A stretch of 64,000 nt of DNA from Cinnamomum chago (Eukaryota; Streptophyta; Magnoliopsida; Laurales; Lauraceae): contig CP142451.1 in the NCBI GenBank assembly GCA_038049695.1, positions 9,112,001 to 9,176,000 of the forward strand, written 5' to 3'. The position numbers and the translations under genes are program-made. The notes beneath the pieces are model-generated. The model did no database searches. It had not been told where the DNA came from and worked only from the letters and a program-made list of their open reading frames with translations. Shown here piece after piece: positions 1 to 51,381 of this stretch. Numbering within the stretch: the first letter of the stretch is position 1; each line of letters opens with the position of its first letter.

Positions 1-297
1 AGAGAGAGAGAGAAGAGAAGAGTTTGGAGGAAAAGTTGATGCCTCAATAGAGGATCAACCAACCATTTTATAATCGTATTTACCCTAATCACATGCTATT
101 AATCAGCAGCAATTACAATCTAATTACAATCAGAAATTAAAGAATAAAAGAATCCTAATCTCTATACATAGAAGTATATCCATAATACAAGCTGTATAAG
201 GCTTAACCTAGTCCCACACGTGGGATATTCTACATGGGCCTAGATGGGCCAAGATTAGTGTACATGGGCCTATTTAGTTCATGGGTTATCTTCTACA
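1..297 (-). repeat. 3' LTR of the Copia element (partial)
   Basis: Matches 4865-5184 almost base for base. It ends at 297 with TCTACA, the inverse of the TGTAGA start of the LTR on the minus strand. About 25 bases of the outer end lie before the window start. A GA microsatellite stands at its outer edge. Confidence 0.93.
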
Positions 298-2235
298 CTC
301 CCCCTCAAATTGATGTGGTAAGGCAGAAAACATCAATTTGCATGTAAGATCATGATGATGTGTTTTGGGAAGAGCCTTGGTGAATATATCCGCCAACTGG
401 TTAAGAGTAGAGACATGAGGAAGGGATTTCTTCTCAGTAACGACATGCTGACGGATGAAGTGACAATCAATCTCAATGTGCTTCGTCCTTTCACGAAAGA
501 CCGGATTGTTGGCAATTCTGATAGCACTGGTGTTGTCACCATGAAGAGGGGTAGAACGACCAAGAAGAACACCGAATTCACACAGAAGATGGTGTAGCCA
601 GATGATTTCGGCACTAGCGGATGACATTGCCCGATATTCTGCCTCAGCAGAAGACTTCGAAACGATGGTTTGCTTCTTGCACTTCCACGAAATCAGAGAA
701 TCCCCAAGAAACATACACCAGCCAGTAGTAGAGCGCCGAGAATCTGGACAACCAGCCCAGTCGGCATCAGCATAAGCAAATAAGCACAAAGAAGTACCAG
801 AATGGTAGAAGAGACCATAGTGAAGAGTGCCTTTAATATAGCGGAGTATGCGTAAAGCAGCAACAAGGTGAGGTTTGAAGGGATTGCTAACAAACTGGCT
901 AACCGTATGAACGGCATGAGAAATATCCGACCGAGTCATAGTTAAGTAGAGCAAACTACCAACTATCCGCCGGAAAATAGAGAGATCATCCAGGGGAGGG
1001 CCATCATTCGAACTGAGTTTGTTGTTCAATTTCATAGGCGTATCAACAGTGTGAGCATCATCAAGCCTTGCCGAGTTAATCAAATCTGTAACATATTTGC
1101 GCTGATGGACCCGAATGACAGATTTGTTATGCACAAACTCAAGCCTCAGAAAGTAGGTGAGAGGACCAAGATCCTTCTTTCTAAAGTGGCGAGTAAGATG
1201 AAGTTTGAGATCCGTAATGCCGGCAACATCATTGCCACTAAGAATCATATCATCAACATAGACTAAGAGAAATGTGTAGCCTTTCGGTGTCCATCTGAGG
1301 AAGAGGGAACGATCAGAGTGACTCTGGCGAAAGCCAGCTTGAAGGATTGCTATCCGAAATTTATCAAACCAAGCCCTGGGAGCCTGCTTAAGTCCATAAA
1401 GAGCTTTCTTCAATTTACAAACATGTTGTGGAGGACAAGCATATCCCGAAGGTGGTTTTAAATACACAGTCTCACACATGTCGCCATGAAAAAAAGCATT
1501 TTTGACATCCATTTGCCATAGGGGCCAGTTGCGGGTTGCAACTACACAAAGGAAAGTGCGAACAGTTGTCATTTTAGCCACTGGTGCAAAGGTCTCCTCA
1601 TAGTCAATCACATATTCCTGCTTATAACCCTATGCAACCAATCTGCCTTTGTAGTGGTCAAGACTCCCATCAGAGTGAACTTTTATGGAATAGATCCATT
1701 TACTGACGATTACAGATGCACCGTTAGGGGCCGGTACCAATTCCCATGTTTTGTTTGCTTCCAGAGCAAGCAACTCCTCAGTCATAGCATCCTGCCAGTA
1801 AGCAATCTTCGAGGCCTGTGAATATGAGGTGGGTATAGGAGCACTATCCAAATAAGTGAAAAGAACAGGAAAGCCATAACGGTCAGGGGTAACTGAAGGA
1901 TGACTAGAGCGTCGCAGGGGTATGATACTATTAGAAGAAGCATTAATACCTGAGGGTACAGTAGGTGGCACTGGAAGAGGATCAGGAGAAGGAGTCCCCA
2001 CAGGAGGAACCATGTTACGCCAGACATAGACATTGGTAATAGGAGGTGGAGAAGTTGCGGGGAAGTGCGGCATATAAGACACAGCAACAGGGTGATTATC
2101 CAAACGCAAAGAAAAGAAAGGAATGTTTTCCAAGAAGATCACATTACGAGATATTCGCATGCGTTTTTCGAATTGATCATAACACAGAAATCCCTTGTGT
2201 TCAGTACTGTAACTAAGAAAGATACATTTGGCAGC
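286..2235 (-). pseudogene. Copia reverse transcriptase and RNase H (broken)
   Basis: The minus strand encodes the variable integrase C-terminus, the RT with its YVDD active-site box (about 1250-1262), and the RNase H with the ADWAGCPDSRRSTTG and KSSAEAEYRA signatures. It closes with the ADIFTKALP motif typical of the Copia pol end. An in-frame amber codon at about 1630-1632 separates the RT start (ending KGRLVA) from the remainder. A second amber at 2236-2238 cuts it from the integrase. Both sit in otherwise open frames, so they look like simple point mutations. The product cannot be made as a single polyprotein. Confidence 0.92.
298..309 (-). other. Polypurine tract of the Copia element
   Basis: On the minus strand this reads TTTGAGGGGGAG immediately before the LTR start TGTAGA, the usual plus-strand priming site of plant Copia elements. 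Confidence 0.85.
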
Positions 2236-3148
2236 CTAAGGAGACAACTTAGTGCGCTCTGTAGGTGAAAGATGAACAAAGCACAGGCAGCCAAAAACTC
2301 GTAAGTGAGAATATGAAGGGGCATGACCAAAGAGAGTTTCATAAGGAGTAGTCTTTCCTAGAACGGAGCTAGGATGACAATTAAGGAGATAAACAGCAGT
2401 CTGTGCAGCATCACACCAAAAGGTGGGAGGAACTAAGGATGCAAGGAGGAGAGAACGAACAGTTTCAAGAATATGTTTGTTCTTCCTCTCCGCAACACCA
2501 TTTTGTTGTGGAGTATCCGGGCAGGATTTTTGGTAAAGAATTCCTTTATCAGAAAGGAAGGTAGAAAAATCATGGGACATGTATTTTCCACCAGAGTCAG
2601 ACCTAAGAATTTTTATTTCTTTCTGAAATTGTGTTTGAACCATTTTGTAAAACTTTTGGAAAAGAGAAAAAACTTCAGATTTGAAGCGCATGAAATAAAT
2701 CCAATTGAAACGAGAATGATCATCAATAAATGTCACATAATACTTAAACTCAGTCCTACTCAATGTGGGTGCAATTCCACAAACATTGCCGCCCCTGTAT
2801 GACAGAACTAGTGGAAGAAAAGTTAACACTGTACCTATCATCAATAAGTTGTCCTACAGAAAGTAAATTGCGTGATAATTTGGGAACAAAGTAGACATTG
2901 GGAATGCTGATAGACTGGCCAGAAATACTGGATAAAGTAATGGTACCAATACCAGAAATGGGTAATTGGTCGCCATTAGCAGTGGTGATTTTGTCTTTTC
3001 CAAGGTAAGGTTGAGAGTTTGTAAAGCTACCATTGACAGAAGTCATGTGGTTCGATGCTCCTGAATCTAGAAACCATGTGGATGTGGTGATAGATGAAGA
3101 CTCAGAGAGTGAAGAATGAAATGCAGGAAATGCGATAGGAGAATGAGT
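2236..3148 (-). pseudogene. Copia protease and integrase core (internal deletion and frameshift)
   Basis: The protease active-site motif DSGAS is encoded at about 3055-3067, followed by the gag-pre-integrase segment to about 2780. The reading frame then switches to the integrase core (FIDDHSR, LRSDSGG, NGVAERKN). The expected N-terminal HHCC zinc finger and the stretch carrying the first catalytic Asp are absent. This indicates an internal deletion near 2770-2800, roughly 100 codons judging from the family. The integrase would be inactive even without the stop codons. Confidence 0.85.
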
Positions 3149-4174
3149 TTAATACCGACCACCAGTAAAGCCCATAGATGCGTATGCCGAGGTAACCGTA
3201 TTCTGAATTAGATCTTGAATCTGGGCAGGAGTCATGGAGACGGACCCAGAAGAGGTGCTTCCTATATCAGGGAAAGATGCTTGAACTTGGAATGCAGCTG
3301 GAGCATTTTGTCTGGGAAAGTTGGAAGGATTCTGCTTCTGCTGGGGCCCATTCTTTCGCTGTAAGCTCCGACAGTCATCAATAAGATGACCAGAGCGTTT
3401 GCAATATATGCACACCGATTTCTTACGACAATTCTTGGCAATATGACCGAAGACTTTGCATTCATAGTATTGAGCAAGCTTCTGATTGGGGGTTGCCAAG
3501 AGAGCAGAATCAGCCAGAAGAAGAGCTAGAAAAGCCTTTGGGTCTTCAACAATGGCACGCTGTGAGTTCAAGCGAAGTTCTTCTCGAATGACCTCTTGGA
3601 AGCAGGTATCGAGGTTCGCAGATACTTCTCTATTCATGAGAGCAGACCGAACCGATTCAAATTCGAGTCTGAGGTTCATAAGGAACTGGCTGATGTGAGT
3701 TTCCTCTTGTAATTTGAGAGCCTCAAACAAAAATCCAGAAGAAACAAATTGAATGATCATGGCATCCCGCTCAGTCCATAAGATGAGAAACCCATTAAAG
3801 TATTCTTGCACAGATTTATCTCCTTGATTGAATTTAGCAATTTCACTATCCAAGTGAAATTTGCGTGCTTTATTCGTTTGATGATAAATTTTCTTGAGAT
3901 GTGACCACATATCAGCGGCAGCAGTATATGCTTGAAGAGCAATGGAAAGAGAAGGATTAATGGAGTTAAGAATCCAAGTGATCACCCTAGCATTTTCTTT
4001 GGACCAAGTGGATAATGCTTTTGTGTCAGTAGCACTTACAGTAGTAGGTTTAGTTATCGATCCATCAAGATAACCAAACAGTCCTTGGCCTTCCACAAAA
4101 TTCTTGAGATGAAAAGACCAGGCCGTATAATTATTCCCATTAAATTTAACTGGAATAACGTCATATTTTTCCAT
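3149..4174 (-). pseudogene. Copia gag, 341 codons
   Basis: The ATG at 4174-4172 opens a typical Copia gag (PVKFNGNNYTAWS near the N-terminus). The upstream in-frame extension to 4321 begins at a TTG and is not the start. Two zinc knuckles stand near the C-terminus. The second is intact (CX2CX4HX4C). The first has Tyr in place of its first Cys. A TAA at 3151-3149 ends gag, but the same frame continues directly into the protease motif, so this stop is probably a mutation in what was one long frame. It could instead be a gag/pol boundary. Confidence 0.85.
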
Positions 4175-4847
4175 TGTTACTGAATGCAGCAGAGACCACA
4201 CAGAAAGCAGTAGCAGTGAACAGTAACAGAGAAGAACAGCAGCAGTATAGGAGCAGATCCCAGTGAACAGCAAAGCACAATGTAAAGAACGAAGTAATAT
4301 GCTATGATTTTCACTAACCAAGCATGAAAGATGCGATCAGATTTGATGATATGTGAATGCAGGAGAAAACACCACAAAAAATACCAAAAACAAGAGCCAG
4401 ACGAACTGGATCTTCAAGGCAGAAGTGGTGCGTGGGGCCCACAATGGTGTCCAATCTCAGATCAGAGTATATAATCCTGGAAAGGATCAAAAGTATGTCC
4501 TCCAGTCCAAGTTTGAGGAAATTTGGATAAAGATCCACAAATTTGGACTGTGGTGATGAAATCTTTTTGAGAAAAAGGACCCAAAACCGTCAGATGAAGA
4601 AGGGGTTGAACAGTACCTTAATCGATGAGTAAAAAATCCAGAAAAATCTTCAAAACATCCCTGAAGACTAGTCGATCAGAACAATGGGTGTTGCTGGCGA
4701 CAAGTGATTGATCAGAGGTGGGCCACCTTGATCAGAGAACTCCAGGCAGAGTCAGCAGAGAGAAGGAAGAGATGATACACCAGGGAGAAGCACTCGATGA
4801 TGTTTTTGGAGAACCTCTCAGACTTAATGAAGGAAATATCCTCATAA

Positions 4848-4864
4848 CCTTAGCTCTGATATCA
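4848..4864 (-). other. Primer binding site, tRNA-iMet type
   Basis: The minus strand reads TGATATCAGAGCTAAGG, one base away from the usual plant Copia primer site TGGTATCAGAGC, directly abutting the right LTR. Confidence 0.85.
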
Positions 4865-5184
4865 TGATAGGATATGAATGATCATGCACAGAGAGAGAGA
4901 AGAGAAGAGTTCGAAGGAAAAGTTGATGCCTTAACAGAGGATCGACCAACCATTTTATAATCGTATTTACCCTAATCACATGCTATTAATCAGCAGCAAT
5001 TACAATCTAATTACAATCAGAAATTAAAGAATAAAAGAATCCTAATCTCTATACATAGAAGTATATCCATAATACAAGCTATATAATGCTTAACCCAGTC
5101 CCACACGTGGGATATTCTACATGGGCCTAGATGGGCCAAGATTAGTGTACATGGGCCTATTTAGTTCATGGGTTATCTTCTACA
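4865..5184 (-). repeat. 5' LTR of the Copia element, 320 bp
   Basis: Bounded by TG and CA (plus-strand TGATAGG to TTCTACA). It lies between the primer site and non-element sequence starting at 5185. Nearly identical to 1-297. Confidence 0.95.
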
Positions 5185-5189
5185 AGAAC

Positions 5190-6189: not shown

Positions 6190-6731
6190 TAAGGAGGGAT
6201 AGAAATTATCAAAGAAAGCTTAATAACTCCCTCTTTGGCAAGTAGGTCCGCCTCCGCATTGGCAGATCTCATAATGTGATGGAAGGACACATTCAAATCT
6301 CCCGACAACTAAAGCACCTCTTCTATAATTCTGCAAGATTCCAAGGTGGGGGAAGAAGACTGAGTTGCCCATTGGATAACACAAGAAGGATCTCCTTCTA
6401 CAGGGAGACGCTGAGGTAGTAGACAGGACGCTTCCCGCAGACCTATGTTCAATGCTAGGAGTTCCGCTTTGTTGATTGAATGAACACCTGCTGGGCCAGA
6501 GTAAGACAGAATTATGTTCCCATCTTCATCACGGATAAGACCACCAACACTTTCCATGCCTGGATTACCAGTAGCGCTCCCATCAAAATTAAGCTTCAAA
6601 GCTCCATGTGGAGGTGGGTGCCATCTTGGATAGATGCGCCTCGAAATAGGGCAAGAAAGAGCCACTACATCCCAATTGAGAAGAATGGTATTTGCCGAAA
6701 TACCTTTAAATATTTGCAAATGAGAGACCAA
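6190..6731 (-). pseudogene. LINE-encoded RNase H domain
   Basis: The minus strand shows the plant L1-type RNase H pattern: LNFDGSATGNPG, GGLIRDEDGN, then the NKAELLAL segment and the SANAEADLLAKEG end motif (about 6210-6260). This group of plant L1 elements carries an RNase H downstream of the RT. It is part of a dead element. Confidence 0.8.
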
Positions 6732-7899
6732 AGGGCCATGAGATGTTTCATGTTATCTGCAATCTTGTTCGCATCTAAGGATTTTCCTTCAAAGCACCTG
6801 GAGTTTCTTTCTTTCCATAAGGACAAATGGCCTCTAAGAATAAAAGTTTCCACATCATTCGTCCTCTTTTTTAGCCTACCCCCAATCTCCAAAAAGTCAA
6901 ACAGAGAAGGGATAGAGTTTGGTAGAGGACCACATAAGTGGAACCAAGTAAAAATCAATCTCCATATGCGTTGGGCAATGGAGCAATTAAGAAGCAAGTG
7001 ATCAATTGATTCCTCATTTGTGAGGCACATTGGACAAGCATTAACAATATTCACTTTCCGTCGACGTAAATTGTCCATGGTCAGTATCCCACCAGACAAA
7101 ACATCCAAATGTTGTTACATGAGGTGGTGTTTTCATGCTCCACAAGCTGTCCCAAAAAGAATGACTCCACCTTTGCAGACAATGAAGAAAAGAAAGAAGC
7201 CACCGAAAAGAGGCCATCAGATGACGCCATCCAGATTCTTCTATGTCTGCCCTCCCTAGGGATGAAGACACCCCGAGGACTATCAACAAAGAGCGGATTT
7301 GGGACTCCTCCACATCTTTTAAATTCCTCCTAAAAGCAGGCCCCTAACTGATGTGATCACCTATCCTCTCCATGTATTTGATAAATTTGGCTTCCTGGTT
7401 AGTAGCACAACGAAAAAACGCTAGGAAAGTTGATGCCAGTGTGTTTTCTCCAACCCAAAGATCAGCCCAAAAATAGATCTTGTCCCCCTTCCCCACACGA
7501 AACTTGAAATGTTCGTAAATGCATCCTTTGCAGCAAGAATGCCCTTCCACATCCCAGAATAGCAGGCAGATGGATCTTTTATAAGCCACCAATCCCTAGA
7601 GATGTCGTATTTAGAGGTAATGACCTCCTTCCGCAGCCCCTCAGTCTCATCTCTTAACCTCCATAACCATTTACCAAGAAGAGCTAAGTTTATCTTCTTT
7701 AGAGCTCTGATCCCCAAGCCTCCTGCCTTTTTTGTTTTACACACTTGGGACCACTTAATCAAGTGGGATTTTTTCTTCTCCTTGTTGTGCCATAGAAAAT
7801 CGCGTTGCAGCTTCTCAATTCGATTTATAACTTCCACTAGACAATTGAATAGAGACATGAAATAAATTGGAAGATTGGTCAAAGCAGTTTTAATTTAAG

Positions 7900-41838: not shown

Positions 41839-42912
41839 TCGAATTGATTTAGTGATTAATTTTGCTAAAATAAGTGAGAGAAAAAGGATGGCTGGCATGG
41901 CCAATTGATTAACTGGGTGAGCTCAGGCGTATCATGTTTGATGTGGGTCAGGCTTGGTCCATGCGCTTAGAGTCGGGCGAAGCCTGTATATGCCTTAGTC
42001 CAAGCCAACCGACCCATGAACACACCTGGCTGGTGCGAGTGGATCTGTCTTGCTCTCCCTTATGCTCAAATGAACTTTATTTATTTATTTATAATTTTAC
42101 TAATATATAGGCTACTAGCCATAGAGTGATATTTTGAATATTTGCTTGTGAAACAAGGTGCCCACACCATTCAGCGATGAGTGTGTGTTGGCATTCAAAA
42201 GAACTATTTATTTACATAAAATAAAGAGTAATTGAATTACTAGGGTAATTATCTGTATTTCTATTTCACTAATTTTACTTTTCATGAAAACGGAGTTTAT
42301 TTTAGTCATTTTTTTATATTAATTTTTTTTTTATATTCAGTTTTAACCACTTTTTAAAATAAAGCTAAGTTAAAGCCCGTGTAATGCACAAGTTAAATTG
42401 CAAGTAAATTAAAGAATAAAATAAAATTATTATCAAATTAAATACTAATTAATAAAAAATACATGGTTTGATTGAATGATAAACTGGCTTTAGACAATCC
42501 TTCGCCCAGTCTAACCCAACCCACACCCACCCCATCCAAAATATCCCCCTTTCGTGAAGATTCTGTCAAGTTCGACTGATGGCCTTGTGGCATTCACCTC
42601 GAAAGTGGGTCCCACTACACGATCCTTCCAGTTCTTCACCCACCAAGTCACTCTCCCTTGTATCAAGAACGTTCACCACTACAGTCTTCACTTACCATTT
42701 ACTACACGTTGCACGTCCACAGACCCTTGCATGACACATGTATCCACACACCCAACACTAGGCACTAGATCATCAACAACCACCCTCCCAAGAAGAAACA
42801 ATAAAGCAACAAACACTTGGTTTTACAAACTATACCTTTAAGCCTTTTACCTCTACATTCACAGAAGTTAAAGAAACCGAAAGATTCGAAGTTTGAACGG
42901 TGAAAAAAAACA
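41839..42912. other. Intergenic region and presumed H2B.8 promoter
   Basis: AT-rich sequence with no coding potential. No canonical histone octamer (CGCGGATC) or clear TATA box was seen close to the histone start. Confidence 0.45.
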
Positions 42913-43728
42913 ATGGCTCCAAAGCGCTCTGTTAGAGTAGTAGGCAGCAGCTTCGTGAGAAAGACCACAACAGAGAAAGTTGTCCAAGAGACCATCAATG
43001 TCACAGCCGCTGTGTTCGACCCCAACAACACAGAAGAGGAAGTAGAAGAGCTAAATGATAGTCTTCCCACCCCCACAACCAAAAAAGTAATAGTAGTTGA
43101 AGGACCAACCCAAACAAGTGTGACTACTCCTCAAGAAGAAGAAAATGACACAAAAGAAAGTACCCCACATTCTCAAGAAGAAGAATATGACACAACAGAA
43201 AGTACCCCACATCCTCAAGAAGAAGAAAATGACACAACAGAAAGTATCCCACCACAAGTAGAGAATCCTCCACCCCCAACAACAACAACAATAGAAGAGA
43301 AGGTGAATAAGGAGAAGAAGAAGGAGAAGAAGAGGAGGAAGAAGAGGAGGAAGGAAGGGGTTGAGGTGGGGTACAAGAGGTATGTGTTTATGGTGTTGAA
43401 GCAGGTGCACCCGGGCATGGGGATCTCGTCCAATGCCATGACAGTGTTTAATGGGCTCATGAACGACATGTTTGAAAAGCTGGCAGCGGAAGCCAGCAAT
43501 CTGTGTCTGTACACGAAGAGGGCGACTATGACGTCGAGGGAGATACAAGGAGCAGTGAGGCTGGTGTTGCCTGGTGAGCTTGGGAAGCATGCAATTGCAG
43601 AGGGGACTAAGGCTGTCACCAATTATGATGGGTCAGGCCCAAATGACTCGGTCCGTAGTGGCAGATTAGGCCCAAGTGGCCCGGTCCACGATAACTGGTC
43701 AGGTCAAACTGACCTTAGTCCATTGTGA
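42913..43728 (+). CDS. H2B.8: Histone H2B.8-type variant with long disordered N-terminus; C-terminus altered by LTR insertion
   Basis: One intronless frame of 271 residues, starting at an ATG in good context (AACAATGGC). Residues about 1-150 form a low-complexity, Glu/Thr/Pro-rich tail that begins MAPKRS, holds three 14-residue repeats (about 73-114) and ends in a Lys/Arg-rich block. Residues about 154-238 are an H2B histone fold: [20 protein letters not shown], then [11 protein letters not shown] and [19 protein letters not shown]. This matches the H2B.8 (HTB8, also called H2B.S) variant of flowering plants, known in Arabidopsis to compact sperm chromatin through its disordered tail. From residue 239 the sequence is encoded by a solo LTR (43626-44165), so the final 33 residues are foreign. 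Without the insertion the frame would end at a TAG at 44199-44201, giving 247 residues; Arabidopsis HTB8 is about 243. The fold itself is undamaged. Confidence 0.92.
43129..43254 (+). repeat. Three 42-bp tandem repeats in the H2B.8 tail
   Basis: Each unit encodes 14 residues of the form P/S-QEEE-N/Y-DT-T/K-ES-T/I-P-H/P. The copies are in frame and nearly identical, so repeat number can change without breaking the gene. Confidence 0.95.
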
Positions 43729-44165
43729 GCCCGGGTCGTCATCTACTCGTTAAGGGCCGGGTTCGGATCCACTGAAGGAAGAAGTCATCATGTCGTTTCA
43801 CCTACCTGCTTTTACCAATTCCCGCGGAGGAAATCTTATATGCTCATCTGTTGAGGAGAGTTCGGAAGACTCCACTAGACTGAAGCGTACATCATTGGAG
43901 ATCCCTGGAGAATCTCCCCATCCGTTGGAGAAAGAGTATAAAAGGAGGAGTCCTAGCAAAGGAAAGGAGATCTCTCGAATTCTACACCTCATTATTGTAT
44001 CTGACTACTTTGTAATCTCCTCCCCAGAGCAATAAAGCAATCACTTGAAGTGGACGTAGGTCATCCAAACCGAACCACTATAAACTCTCTCTCTCTTCAT
44101 TAACTTTCACATTTATTACATATCACTTGACCGGTGGTGCCCGAAACCACTTTTTGGCATCATCA
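43626..44165 (+). mobile_element. Solo LTR, 540 bp, inserted in the H2B.8 coding end
   Basis: Begins TGATG and ends CATCA. It is flanked by a perfect 5-bp target duplication AATTA (43621-43625 and 44166-44170). A TATAAAAG box at 43937-43944 and AATAAA at 44031-44036 lie in the order expected of an LTR transcribed on the plus strand. The 3' part (GTGGACGTAGGTCATCC, then CCGAACCACTATAAA) resembles plant Ty3/gypsy LTRs. There is no internal region or second LTR, so it is a solo LTR left by recombination. It has the same orientation as the histone gene and may now supply its polyadenylation signal. Confidence 0.93.
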
Positions 44166-44201
44166 AATTACATGACCAATGACCGGGCAACATCCCCATA
44201 G
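44166..44201 (+). pseudogene. Displaced native C-terminal codons of H2B.8
   Basis: After the second AATTA the original frame resumes and encodes the displaced tail MTNDRATSP followed by TAG at 44199-44201. It is separated from the rest of the gene by the solo LTR and is no longer in the open frame. Confidence 0.85.
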
Positions 44202-45808
44202 TGGCCTTCTGTAGAGATTTATGCAATTTCTAGTTTGTGATGAATCTCACTCTCTCTGTCTCTAGGTTTTTTTGGATATGGGAATTGTGGCCTTCTATTT
44301 TGCTGTTAGTTGAAAGAAGGTTCCTGAAATTGGGTTTACTTTGTAAGGTTGTGGTTCAAGGGTATTGTTGTATTTAATGTGAGTAGTGCATGGGTGTATG
44401 TGATTATGTTTCTGGACCAAGTGTACTTCGGGACCGTTTGGGTTGCTTGGAAATTATTTACACGTAAATGGAGGTAATGATTTTGTAGAACCTGAATTAA
44501 CCTCAAGTGACTCATTAAATTATTTACCAAATAAAGTGACTGATTATATGTTCTGTGAAATTCAAACCACTTGTATCAAAATTTATGTGTTGATAATTTC
44601 CTTTGAAATGATCATTTTTTCTTAATTTCCTTCCAATATGATTGTATTGATTTTCTTTTCCACTTTGAATGTTTATTGATCATTATCTTCTCTTGCTTTA
44701 ATCAGAAGCCTAAAGAATAACATATGTTATATATTAGTACTTTTAGAATCTATATTATATTATTTTTCTCATTTGTTTTTCCTACTAATTGCTACTTTTC
44801 TATCATGTGTTTTTTCTACTAATAGCTACTTTTTTTTTTTTTTTGGCAAAAGGTAGGATAAATGGTTCTCACCTCAAGTGGTGGTCAAAACACCTTTTTC
44901 TATAATGAGAAAGATTTTATCTAATCGCAATTAGGTGGCATTTAACCATTTAATAAGTAATTTCTCCTTACATGTCTTTCACCATTTTACTCCAAGCACA
45001 GTGGAGAATCACTGCTAGGAAAATATGGTGAATTTCCCCAAGGGGATTTTTCACCTTGAAATTTCTCTTCTACTGGGAAGAGATGGTACATTTCCCCAAA
45101 GAGGATTCCTCACCTCGAAATTTCTCTCTTTCATTTCTCCACCTAGTGAACAATTGTTTCCATTCAGGGAGCAATGGGGGTACCAAAAGATGAGCAGAGT
45201 TGAATGCCGGTTTTTATTTTGATGGTAACCAAATTAACAATGTTGGCTTCAGATGATGTTTCTAAAAGATTGCTTGTTTTAAGAATGTTTACTACAGAAA
45301 GGCTCATTATACACCATTCACCAACAAAACAAATCATGTCTGAAGAAGATTAATTCTCTCTACCTTTGCAGCGGTACAAGTAGAACAGCATCACCATTGC
45401 GAAAAAAAGAGGTTGCACTAGTGATACAAAGAACTACATTGAAGAATCAAAGAACTTTTAGTAATAAAAAATAGTTCTTCCTTACAGTATACAAAATTGT
45501 ATGAACGATAGAATGAAACAATGGAAAATCTGAATACATGTAACTTGTTCAAAGTATAATAAGCACATAAAGCTTCAATAAATTTAACCACCTCATTTTT
45601 ATCCCTTCTTTTTGTTACTTTTATTATAAGAATCTCAAGTCTCTTCAAGGGAGCCTGCTAACCTCAACAGAGAGAGTTGCCATTTGAATGGTAACCATCA
45701 CCCAGCAGCCATCACCTGCAAGAAAGCTCAGTTTTGAGCCCCCTAAAAACTGTACCATCTCCAAACATCACCATGTAAATCATCAACTCTATCATCTCCC
45801 CAGTGTAA
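44202..45808. other. Intergenic region between H2B.8 and the ArfGAP gene
   Basis: AT-rich. Two imperfect copies of a CCCC-AAGAGGATT-C-TCACCTCGAAATTTCTCT block lie at about 45030-45070 and 45090-45130. No coding sequence. The ArfGAP 3' UTR should occupy the right end. Confidence 0.45.
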
Positions 45809-48789
45809 TCAATCCCATCCAGCCCACTCACTCTTACTATGGGAATTCTTAGGTACATCATGCCCTTCCCCTTCTCTTCCCTTGGCAGAAGAAGCTACAG
45901 GACTACCCGAATCCCAGTCATCCCATCCTTTGAAGGATGAGTTGCTGCCTTTATTCTCCTGACATGGTCCGCCATTACCACAAGGAACCGCGGTTTCTAA
46001 TCGATGATGAATGTATGGTTCTGTGCTATAATCGGTTCCATCTCTTGCATATTCCTCCATCTTCTCAGATGCCATTGCCATCACACCTCTCATGATTCCC
46101 CAAGTCATATGTCCAAGCTCTGAAGTCCTTGAAGTTACCACATTAACAGTGTCATTCACCTTATCATCATATCCAGCTTCCATTACCTGCCAAATATTCA
46201 TAACATGTTCCACGTGATTTGTGCTATATATTTTATTTTTGAAAGGTGATTTGTGATATATTATTAGAGAGAAATTATTATATAGTTTCACTGTCCCGGA
46301 ATAGTAAGTGTGATTCAGTTAACAAAAACTCTACTGTATGCCTGCATCCCATCACATTAGACCTTACATCAATACTGCCACCTTCAAATTGTTACAGCCA
46401 TGAATCCTGCAAATCAGAGTAATCTTCTGTTTGATCGAAGTCACTTCTTCATATAATGATCCCACTTTTCATTTTGTGGGTGAGAAAGATCATTTCAATG
46501 TAGTGGTGAATATTACTCTGATCTGAGTCGAACTCTGGTCGATAGAGAAATTAGAGAGAGGGTCAGTTTGTTCCAAGGTCTAATTGGACAAGAAATGGAC
46601 CCTGCAATGCAGATTTTACACGTCTATGATCATAACTGGACATATTGGCTCGGGTAAAATAATCATCATTCATTTTCCAAAGGACTTGTAGCCACTCTTA
46701 TGTAGAACCAGAGACAAGTTTATATACCATATCCGACAGTCAAATATTGTAAAGTGATTCAATCCCATTGTAGTTAAAGAGTAATCAAACAAAGTAGAAA
46801 AAATGACAATGCAGCCTCTCACTAATCTATGGGTACAATTTCTGTTGTTGGACCTGCAATGCAGGGATTAAATATTTTGAGACCCAATTAAAAGGTTTAA
46901 GTCTGGATAAAATAGAAACATAAGCTATATGGCCAACGTAATGTACGTAGCTGTCTAGATAGATGGCGCTTGTGCAATTACCTTGGAAGTTAGCTCTTTG
47001 GTACCAGCTTGGACAGCATTAGCTGCAGACTGAACAGCAGATGTTGCAACAAAAGAAAATCGACCTAGGCCCTGATGACACAATGAAAACAACAGAAAAT
47101 ACAATCAGAATTAAGATCGTATTGTTCTCTGCTCCATAAACAACTCAGAGCAGTAGCTTGTTATAGAGAAAGAACTGTATAAAGAATAAAAAACATTCTT
47201 GTTTTTATAAATATTACTGATCTAGAAAAGGAGAAAACCAAGAATCTGAAATGACTAGATTGGTTGTCAATGGATTCCACCTGTTGTGAAGTCCCACATC
47301 GCCTATGTCCTGAGTTGGACATGTCTTCATATACCTGTTTGGGCCTTCCACCTATCAGCTTAAGCTTTTGGGTTGGTATATGGTTTCTTATATGGGCTAC
47401 TATCGTTCTTGTGTAGCCCATGTGGCAGGCCCGTCCATAAAATCCGTTGGGCCTGCACATGAGGGGGAATGTTTCATATACCTATTTGGGCCTTCCAACT
47501 ATCAGCTAAAGTTGTTGGTTTGGTAAACAGAAGATTGTCCACCCATAAAAGACCATAATGAGAGGACAAGTTCATCTACGGCCAGTGGTGAATTACTAAA
47601 TATCTCTATGTTGGTGAATTCTTACAAACCCATACAAGACCATAATGAGAGGACAAGATCAATGGATAGGTAATTGACAACAACCTTCAACACATGTAAA
47701 TATGACAATCTCTTCATCATCATATTCAAAACAGGGCTAAGTTGTACAATCTATACTTCCTCTCAAACTTAGAAGAAAAAAAAAAGAAAGAAAGAAAAAA
47801 CCACTAAACTCACCTCAAACTAGTGCAAACTAAAAGTACTCTCTCTCTAAAAAAAAAATGGCTGGGGTCAGGTCAAGTTGAGTCAAGTCCCTACATGGTG
47901 ACCAGGCATTTTTGGCAAGATAATGTCCCCCATTCCTCTTACGGTAAAAAACATCCATGTAGTGTGTATCACCCAATGCACTCCCAGCATAAGAAACTTG
48001 AAAACAAGCAGAGAGCATTTTAGGAGTGTGAAAATAAGTAAAACTTCTGCATTTACCTTGTCTGTTCCACTTCCTCTGCTTTGTCAGTACGAATATGCGA
48101 GGTTTTCATTTCATGCAAAATTTGTGGGCCCTTGTGACTTGCCTATCTAAAATCTAAACCACAACAATGCTATAATATCATCATCTAGAAAAAGGCTATA
48201 TGCAATAACCCCGTGCACAACCCCGTCCACTAGGAAGAGGTTTGAGATTGGAGGAGGGGTAATTGAAGACATGGGTTTGGGGGTAGAGGTGAAATTGGGG
48301 CAAGTACTTTGTTGATCAGGAGGTGGGTGGGTTTTGAAGGAGAGATGTTGGGCTTTGATAAGGACTCAAGACTGTTTGGATTGAGGGATGCCTCTACTAG
48401 TAAAAACAAGGAGGATTTCTTACCTCTCAAAATCTTTAAATACATGATCAGGGTGCTGAATTGATGAAGTAGGAGGAGAAGAAGAATAAATGGGGTTTAG
48501 AGATAAGAGAGAGGTTAGAGGGGGTCTCCATTTCCTTCCTCTATGAAATAAAGAGAACCAAAGTGAAAAGGAGAGTGCGGTTTTTTAAGGGATAAAGCCG
48601 GGGAAATGTGTGTGATTGATCTAAACATGTGGGCCACCTTTGGTTTGTAATTTGTGGTCTTATGGGATCCCCATCCCTCAAGACGGGTGAGGTTTGAAGA
48701 GAGATCTTTGATGTGCCTCTTGCTTTTGAAGAAAGGGATTTAGGATATGGGGTTTTGATGGGTGTAGTGTGTACTGTGGAAGGTGAGCT

Positions 48790-48863
<74 letters not shown>

Positions 48864-51381
48864 CTAGGATATGATACCCAGTTCAAAACTACTCTCTTAC
48901 CACAAAATGATATACCTACATATCACCATTGCTAAAATGGGTTTCTTCTCATGTGAAGTTTTCCTCAATGCATTACTGTCGGTACATGAGGGTTTCACTC
49001 CAAATCGTATGAGTAGTATTATGCAAAGATTGGCAGCCTTGAGATATATTTGATGGTAATGCTGATTCAAATGAAATTATGTGAGTAGAAAGTTCTTTAA
49101 TTGATCATGTGGGTAGAAACTTACGTAAATTGGCTGATCTCACAGGAAAGTAGTCTCAAATTCCCTTTAGACTTTGTAGCTGTTTGCTAGTAACTTCTTC
49201 CCATGCAATTTATATGGTCCACTAGAATGGAGAACAATCTACAAGTTTTATTATTATGATAAAGTTTTCAAGTGGAAAAGTCTCTAGAAAAAAAAAAAAA
49301 TTACCCGTAAAATGGAGTTCATATCCAATAAAGTGAAGGTGTAAAGATGCAAGCCTTTGAGAGGGATCGGTTGGGATTCAATGATTCTAATACAAAAGTG
49401 TGTAGAAATAGAATTACTTTAAGTAAAGGACTCCGCTAGTGGAATTTCAGGATATAAATGTGAATGATACCTTTGCAGGTAATCCACAGGGATCCGGTTT
49501 GGGTGGGTCTTTGGATATGTTAAAGATGAACTGACCTAAGTAGTTTCTGGCCACGCGGTTCAGGTGACTGTAGTTGAAGCAGAAATCTTCATTTGCTTAT
49601 AGGTTTGAAACTTTTTAAAGAGAATGTTAAGGGGCAAGTGATTGTGGAACGTGAAGTTAAGGATGCAATCACATTCACATGTGCATCCAGAAAACAAATT
49701 GAACCTTGACAGTTCATCATTGATGAAGACGACTTAGCCACATCTGTAAAAGCCTTGATAATATGACCTGTGAGGAAAATAAGTTTGTAGATAACCTTTA
49801 TATGGAAAAAGTAATCTATTTATCTTCTGTGTGGGCTTTTCTTATTGACTGCCCCGATAGACAGTGGACAGATCTTCTCTTATTTTTTGTCCTTTTTTTT
49901 TTCTTTGTAAGACAGATTTTTTACATTTCAAAGAGCAAAGTAAAAAACTGATAAAAAGGGAAAGAAAGAAGAGAAGAAGAAAACAAACAAAATCAACAGT
50001 ACAAAAATACACTTGATTCCTACCGTCAGATAAGATGGGTTATGAGTTAGTAATAAATTGTGCTTGTTTGCCATGTTGACTTACAAGTTACGAGTCAATA
50101 TGAGATTAGCATTTAACTGACATTGGCATAGAACATGCTCCTTCAACCAACATACACTGTCCCATTAATAGAAAGAAAGAAAAATCAATTCCAAACTAAA
50201 TGTTCCCATTGCCACACTACCAATATTAATTAATTTCAAATGCTAAACACACACACAGAAAAGACATATATATATATATAATTTGTTAAGCCAACACTTA
50301 ATTGCAGTTTCATTGAGGCATTAACTGAGCAATCATTTACAGATATGTCGTGGAACAGTGTTATCAGGAAATATGTGTTGTTAACGTTTCAATGCGACTA
50401 CTTATCATTATCATCGGGCCTAAGCCTAATCCTATCTACTTATGGCCTGAATCAATGTGACTCGATAGTAGATAAATTAATAATGCGGGGCAAAATTGCA
50501 TCCAAAGGAAACAAAGATAATTAAATTTTGCAGAGAATATGAAAAAAAGGGAGCTGAATTTGTATGATCAACACCTGAGAAAGGGCAGAAACTGCATCCA
50601 TAATCAAATCGCCCTGGGAATTATTGTGTGAGATCGGACTCGTCCCAGTGGATCCGAACCCAACATACTTCCCACCTTGAGAAGGTGGGATCCCCTCCTG
50701 TCTCCCCTCATTCTCTGCCATCTTCCTTGCAAAGTAGTTCTCTTTGTCAGCGGCCGAGGCAGCCATCCTCCCATAAATATCTGTGGAAGAATAGGAGCGG
50801 CTCGGGCACGTCCCTGCCCCTGATCCAGCTCTCATGCTCCCAACAGAATGATTTCTCCGGATACCAGTGCCAGCACCCCCTCCATTCTGATCCCATTCAT
50901 CCCAATTCCCGCCCCAATCAGAATTAGCATTTGAATTTGAATTTGGCTTCGAACTTGGAGACCGGTGAGGAGGGGGTCTGGAGGCAGGGAGGGATTCTCG
51001 GACAACAGCGGGCTCCTGCCATGGGCGGTTTTCGGCGAGGGCCTGGACCATGTTGCGGAAGTGGGCAGCGGCTTTGGTGTTATATTTGATGGTAATGTCT
51101 GTCTCCTTGGGGATGCCACGGGCAGAGAGGAAGGTGTTGAGGGCTTGGTTGCCTGCGCAGTTGGCTTCCATCTTCCGGAGGTGCACTTCAGTCCACAAGT
51201 CCATAGTCACGGAGCGCACGAAGCTGAGGTGGACGCCCAGCCCCCGGTGCTTGCCGGAGCAGTCTAGGCACATGAACACACCATATGATACCGATGCCCA
51301 CTGCGGGTTCTTCTGGGTGCAGTCCACACATGTGCGATTCCCCGGAAGGGATTGAAGCTCCCGCAGACGATGAGAAGCCAT
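45809..51381 (-). CDS. AGD7: ADP-ribosylation factor GTPase-activating protein, AGD6/AGD7 type, complete
   Basis: Three minus-strand exons: 51381-50575, 47071-46982 and 46186-45809, with GT-AG borders and matching phases; 424 residues. The ArfGAP zinc finger is at residues 18-41 (C18-X2-C21-X16-C38-X2-C41), followed by the catalytic Arg in SGKHRGLGVH (R46). The middle is Ser/Asn/Gly-rich. The second and third exons encode the conserved FSFVATSAVQSAANAVQAG amphipathic segment and the GYDDKVNDTVNVVTSRTSEL motif of the plant AGD6/7 group, ending with a Trp-Asp-rich tail. These proteins stimulate GTP hydrolysis on ARF1 at the Golgi and help control ER-Golgi traffic. Assignment to AGD6 or AGD7 is not resolved, so the symbol names the group. 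A GA repeat runs straight into the ATG. Confidence 0.93.
47265..47535 (+). repeat. Retroelement fragment in ArfGAP intron 1
   Basis: GAAGTCCCACATCGCC is a phrase common in plant LTRs. A GAGGGGGAATGT polypurine-plus-LTR-like junction lies at 47461-47472, and a 50-bp segment (CATATACCT-TTTGGGCCTTCCA) occurs on both sides of it (about 47328 and 47475). No coding part remains. Confidence 0.45.
48789..48860. repeat. (CT)n microsatellite in ArfGAP intron 1
   Basis: About 72 bp of uninterrupted CT. Confidence 0.95.

Follow-up and report, generated by a model that had tools for sequence, protein, structure and literature searches.

Does a histone gene remain usable when a long terminal repeat (LTR) lands in its last codons, and if so, what protein and what mRNA does it make? 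The question is raised by a locus in a 64,000-nucleotide stretch of Cinnamomum chago DNA (here called the window), which corresponds to C1:9112001-9176000 in an assembly of 1,061,006,199 bases (1.06 Gb) and 14 contigs. A preliminary description of this DNA had placed a solo LTR within the final codons of an H2B.8-type histone gene, and we confirmed that observation; the gene has a single exon.

Judged by its sequence, the host gene is of the H2B.8/H2B.S type, as had been proposed. Its native coding part (42913..43625, + strand) starts with an ATG at 42913, comprises codons 1-237 plus two bases of a Tyr codon, and encodes an H2B histone fold (Pfam Histone, 1.7e-19, with matches to H2B chains in PDB). 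The sections of PMC7410336 that we consulted define this class by a greatly expanded N tail with a KVVxETV motif, a slightly extended C tail, Arg152, Met179, and an Asn replacing the ubiquitinated Lys. In the C. chago protein, the N tail is expanded, with the core beginning near residue 153, and KVVQETI at residues 22-28 fits the motif at six of seven positions, the last V being an I. R156 and M183 show a spacing of 27, equal to that of Arg152 and Met179 in Arabidopsis, and N237 (in KAVTN) occupies the site of the ubiquitinated Lys, where 8/8 canonical copies in the assembly read KAVTK. By published residue numbers, the apparent offset relative to Arabidopsis is 4 for the R and M and 3 for the Asn (N234/N237). 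Once the LTR is removed in silico, the C tail is extended as well, with 10 residues after the Asn versus 4 after the Lys in the eight canonical copies. The gene thus resembles the Arabidopsis HTB8 class, as presented in the parts of PMC7410336 and PMC9668745 available to us, in its long acidic N tail, KVVxET motif, extended native C tail, equally spaced core R and M, and Asn in place of the ubiquitinated Lys, and it differs in reading KVVQETI rather than KVVxETV.

Three tandem 42-bp (14-codon) units occupy part of the acidic N tail (43128..43252, + strand; Tandem Repeats Finder, 3.0 copies, 92% matches), and the disordered N region of this H2B.8 seems to have been enlarged by in-frame duplication. 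A single-sequence structure prediction was too poor for use (mean pLDDT 46.6); this low-confidence model puts the last helix at 222-236, followed by coil. In the 1 kb upstream of the gene, uncontrolled pattern searches found a single RY-type TGCATG at 42728, CACGT cores at 42705 and 42712, and no DUO1-type core.

What exactly has been inserted, and where? Read directly, the sequence shows a target site duplication, AATTA, at 43621..43625 (no strand), overlying the Asn237 codon, and its second copy at 44166..44170 (no strand). Between them lies an LTR of a Ty3/gypsy element (43626..44165), placed in the gene's orientation (+ strand), which opens with TGATG at 43626 and closes with CATCA finishing at 44165. 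The earlier claim of a 540-bp solo LTR with TGATG...CATCA ends and a perfect AATTA duplication was therefore upheld by direct reading, and genomic copies, described below, support it too. The reading frame runs into the LTR. Tyr238 is retained because its TAC codon turned into TAT at the junction, after which the LTR encodes 33 residues and a stop (43627..43728, + strand; TGA at 43726-43728), which makes an open reading frame of 271 codons plus stop (42913-43728), the last 33 codons being LTR-derived. This LTR-encoded tail is, as described beforehand, rich in Gly, Ser, and Pro (16/33), and its computed pI of 4.56 is acidic. The displaced native end, MTNDRATSP followed by a TAG at 44199-44201, resumes directly after the LTR (44171..44201, + strand), also in agreement with the initial description, and rejoining the flanks by script gives ...KAVTNY-MTNDRATSP-stop, a protein of 247 residues. 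Unlike the rest of its class, this gene therefore has its last nine native codons displaced by the LTR, with 33 foreign residues encoded instead.

Ends and a short duplication would be poor evidence of an LTR if taken in isolation. We counted eight pairs of 5-bp repeats with 5-bp inverted ends, 200-1200 bp apart, in the window, and each of 20 shuffled controls (6-base blocks) contained 5-12 of them. The signature is thus at chance level, and we rejected it as sole proof and let genomic copies decide. The LTR has at least 41 matches in its own assembly, 40 of them at 94-100% (its own place counted) and a further one at 76%, a lower bound given that the best 40 of 1798 first-look candidates were scored. 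The 39 other copies at 94-98% were all fetched, and both borders were common to 37 of these 39. Sorted by position and flanks, the 40 listed places fall into 16 pairs (32 places), six solo LTRs including that of the window, and two unpartnered 5' LTRs, for which no partner was scored among the matches listed. Within the same set of matches, a perfect 5-bp duplication surrounds 14 of the 16 pairs and all five other solo copies, a primer binding site (PBS)-like GTTTGGCGC directly follows the 5' LTR in 14/16 pairs, and a polypurine tract (PPT)-like GGGGCAAA or AGGGCAAA stands just before the 3' LTR in 16/16. The two pairs without the PBS-like sequence, L059 and L068, have an aberrant LTR 3' end. 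When we looked beside the window LTR, neither PBS nor PPT was found. Since the family shares borders, 5-bp duplications, PBS, and PPT, and the window has one LTR with the family borders and a target duplication, and no adjoining PBS or PPT, this LTR is solo. The inserted element would have been reduced to this state by LTR-LTR recombination, the route suggested by established knowledge.

The same comparison bears on whether a repeat was misjoined into the gene during assembly. Repeats are frequent misassembly points, but here the exact family borders lie inside a perfect 5-bp duplication, just as in the five other solo copies, and a native tail typical of the class resumes in frame past the LTR, which makes an artefact barely credible.

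As to the source of the LTR, a 5-kb internal piece of one copy (L069) encodes reverse transcriptase, RNase H, a second RNase H located after the first (RVT_3, 4.5e-26), an integrase zinc finger, and an integrase core. Going by this domain set, with reverse transcriptase and RNase H ahead of integrase in that one piece, the parent is a Ty3/gypsy element, and the LTR family has the 5-bp duplications, TG...CA ends, PBS, and PPT of such elements. We provisionally call it Tat-like, a label that rests on the two-RNase-H layout of that lineage; the likeness consists in finding all of these domains within one internal piece of one copy, and the difference is that the window carries a solo LTR alone. 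Among the matches listed, LTR pairs are spaced 3.4-4.6 kb (eight pairs), 10.1-10.9 kb (seven), or 13.95 kb (one) apart, and since these spacings fall into distinct size groups, the LTR is common to short and long elements. Near-identical LTR pairs are present in both the short (3.4-4.6 kb) and the long (10.1-10.9 kb) elements, and the short form may be non-autonomous and depend on the long form for its mobility. Long open frames also occur on the opposite strand of L069, downstream of the integrase (3147-5000, - strand), one of which has a Transposase_28 match below the curated cut-off.

How old is the insertion? The 14 LTR pairs measured, out of the 16 listed, show 0-3 differences over about 540 bases (L059 and L068 were left out because of their aberrant 3' ends), and the family has therefore been active recently. 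Among the matches listed, the window LTR has one private base when compared with 37 other aligned copies, and its nearest relative is L030, also solo, with seven mismatches. Substitution rates in use for such dating are 1.3e-8 and 6.5e-9 per site per year, with which one private base translates to about 0.14-0.28 My, and the upper limit lies near 0.8-1.6 My. Based on this single base, the insertion probably took place about 0.1-0.3 My ago, with a rough upper limit of 1.6 My; the estimate is rough because the copies compared (the best 40 of 1798) were picked by similarity.

This age changes what the open frame can tell. The histone fold had been described as untouched, and the coding part indeed has no visible decay. 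A neutral coding copy would, however, still be intact with a probability of about 0.83, or 0.36 at the upper age limit, when indels are set at 10% of substitutions. The insertion is thus too young for decay to have set in, the intact fold is poor evidence of a live gene, and we rejected the intact reading frame as proof of one.

Whether the plant could rely on another gene was assessed in the same assembly. A protein search yielded 15 H2B matches. One is this locus, eight are canonical H2Bs of full length, and the remaining six are fragments that, judged by position, combine into three broken copies. All eight canonical H2Bs end in KAVTKFTSS, and for one of them the matched stretch includes a stop that precedes the ATG. 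Among the broken copies, one has KAVTN and is otherwise of the canonical type. The preliminary description had named a second intact H2B.8 copy, with this locus silent and accumulating stops, as a finding that would refute it. None of the 15 H2B matches is such a second copy, which removes this objection as far as the assembly goes, itself perhaps incomplete and with one haplotype visible, and the gene is therefore apparently single copy in this assembly. When the gene together with its upstream sequence served as a DNA query, the assembly yielded the locus itself plus five weaker places, of which three are canonical H2Bs (67-69%) and the others short matches (76-83%); this search found no close duplicate or empty-site copy in the assembly. 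The three broken H2Bs (L024/L025 at C5:42.07 Mb, L026/L029 at C4:26.3 Mb, and L027/L028 at C5:9.17 Mb) are all split near query residues 190-195, with related inserted sequence, and are possibly duplicates of one broken copy.

An insertion this young may segregate within the species. In that case an empty allele would supply normal H2B.8, and the filled one would be tolerated and inconsequential. We rate this as a real possibility somewhat short of even, and it is compatible with the explanation that we prefer for the locus: the probable age of 0.1-0.3 My would be short enough for polymorphism, while the assembly, possibly collapsed to one haplotype, contains one copy of the locus.

The next question is what the filled gene encodes and where its mRNA ends. 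Among the matches listed, the 33-codon frame is open in 37/38 aligned LTR copies, that of the window included, and the tail is therefore a property of the LTR rather than something selected at H2B.8; in L036, no stop occurs within the 180 bases read. By pattern match, the LTR has a TATAAA (43937..43942, + strand) and, as stated in the preliminary description, an AATAAA in the gene's orientation (44031..44036, + strand), with TGTA at 43996 and 44011 and a predicted mRNA 3' end near 44050. Farther on, an AATAAA at 44530..44535 (+ strand), the sole one in 44171-45170, is the candidate native poly(A) signal, and an ATTAAA is found at 44514. With cleavage placed 20 nt beyond the signal, the 3' UTR is predicted to be about 323 nt via the LTR signal, about 349 nt in the empty gene, and about 822 nt on read-through to the downstream AATAAA. 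Transposable elements (TEs) located in 3' regions often terminate plant mRNAs; in Arabidopsis, the consulted part of PMC10241880 reports poly(A) sites in 420 of 599 TEs tied to alternative termination.

Could the native tail still be made, with the LTR spliced out or bypassed? The same source describes resistance genes from which TEs are often removed by splicing, and isoforms of RPP4 in which the original downstream exons are retained. Here, however, there is no AG dinucleotide between 44059 and 44201, and a standard acceptor that would restore the nine native codons to the mRNA is therefore lacking. By rough ad hoc weights, the acceptors with the two highest scores are at 44265, past the native stop, and at 44027, within the LTR, and a ribosome reading through the in-frame TGA would meet more stops in the LTR. 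We therefore rejected splicing-out for lack of a usable acceptor and consider it, together with bypass, very improbable.

On balance, the locus is probably a still-usable H2B.8 gene with a recent solo LTR, whose mRNA ends at the LTR AATAAA and whose product keeps most H2B.8 function. According to this explanation, a Ty3/gypsy element inserted lately in the last codons of the one H2B.8-type gene that was detected, and transcription started at the H2B.8 promoter would continue into the LTR that it left. Translation would replace nine native codons with 33 LTR codons and then stop, and cleavage would occur near the LTR AATAAA, the LTR serving the gene as a 3' LTR serves its own element. The resulting 3' UTR would be close in length to that of the empty gene, and the longer one produced by read-through could invite decay.

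Silencing or decay is the main rival to a usable gene. The LTR might draw H3K9me2 and methylation of DNA, or the mRNA that joins gene and LTR might decay; in either case the gene would be inactive, and plants with the filled allele would have no H2B.8 from it. Because its family was recently active, the LTR would be a likely silencing target, and, in the part of PMC10241880 that we consulted, methylation of DNA and of H3K9 is frequent on TEs within transcribed 3' regions, and many transcript-ending TEs bear repressive marks. Read-through mRNA would have the long 3' UTR given above, and at this age the open frame is no counter-argument. Against such a loss, the LTR supplies a poly(A) signal in the gene's orientation and keeps the 3' UTR short, the same source reports that TEs of this sort can be actively transcribed through, and the coding part shows no visible decay, which is weak evidence. 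Incipient loss appears unlikely to us, though far from negligible.

If, as we favor, the gene is usable, would its new tail matter? The consulted sections of PMC9668745 record H2B.8 in all flowering plants with a published genome except Amborella and show that it condenses sperm nuclei in Arabidopsis. There, an intrinsically disordered region (IDR), the disordered N tail, is required for H2B.8 function, and C-terminal Myc and eGFP fusions rescue the mutant. By analogy, since the N-tail IDR is essential and the C terminus tolerates fusions, the C. chago protein would keep most H2B.8 function; the Arabidopsis fusions, however, kept their own H2B.8 C tail, whereas here the native tail is replaced. 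An effect visible in pollen had been suggested earlier. Because of the rescue by C-terminal fusions in Arabidopsis, this suggestion is weakened, and a pollen phenotype is not the default expectation. The seed is at least as relevant, since, in the text of PMC7410336 available to us, the class is seed-specific in rice and maize, with pollen or sperm expression not evident, and is expressed in mature embryo and in sperm in Arabidopsis. A bolder possibility is that the LTR tail is a working C terminus, and the LTR a working 3' end, of the plant's only sperm- and seed-compacting H2B, such that an acidic Gly/Ser/Pro-rich tail right after the last histone helix alters H2B.8 chromatin condensates, and the degree of chromatin compaction in pollen or dry seed varies between natural alleles with and without the LTR. 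We find this improbable: in the portion of PMC10241880 that we used, LTR/Gypsy elements are under-represented in most TE splicing events, and, for the resistance genes examined there, TE sequence is suggested to be a minor contributor to novel protein-coding functions. Both points count against bolder readings and also weigh on the explanation that we prefer.

Provision of both stop and poly(A) signal by an LTR is an ordinary, already known kind of event. The closest likeness that we found is Arabidopsis RPP4-ATCOPIA4, which, as described in the consulted part of PMC10241880, also has an LTR element in a coding exon that truncates the native C-terminal part and offers poly(A) sites. It differs in that the element is a complete Copia, the host is a resistance gene, and the transcripts have been measured, whereas here a solo gypsy LTR sits in a histone variant gene known from its sequence alone. 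A literature search for a TE in an H2B.8 gene found no report, which does not establish that there is none. What distinguishes this case is which gene was hit, that the gene is apparently single copy, and that the insertion is young. Its value is that of a natural allele, not of a new system, and it could test the importance of the extended C tail, the use of an LTR as a histone-gene 3' end, and the response of a plant when its only H2B.8 is hit.

Elsewhere in the window, an ArfGap gene (45809-51381, - strand; match of 8.1e-31 for 50521-51378) is convergent with the H2B.8 gene, and the frame ending at 45809, which has no Pfam match, presumably represents its last exon. Since the TATAAA of the LTR points that way, LTR-driven antisense RNA on the ArfGap gene is conceivable. 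At the other end, 3-5189 (- strand) contains a Copia-type element with 300-base terminal repeats that are 96% alike and with RVT_2 and gag-type matches in separate open frames. Finally, 6309-7882 (- strand), which we take to be a remnant of a non-LTR element, has a reverse-transcriptase-like RNase H match (RVT_3, 2.9e-10) beside more open frames.
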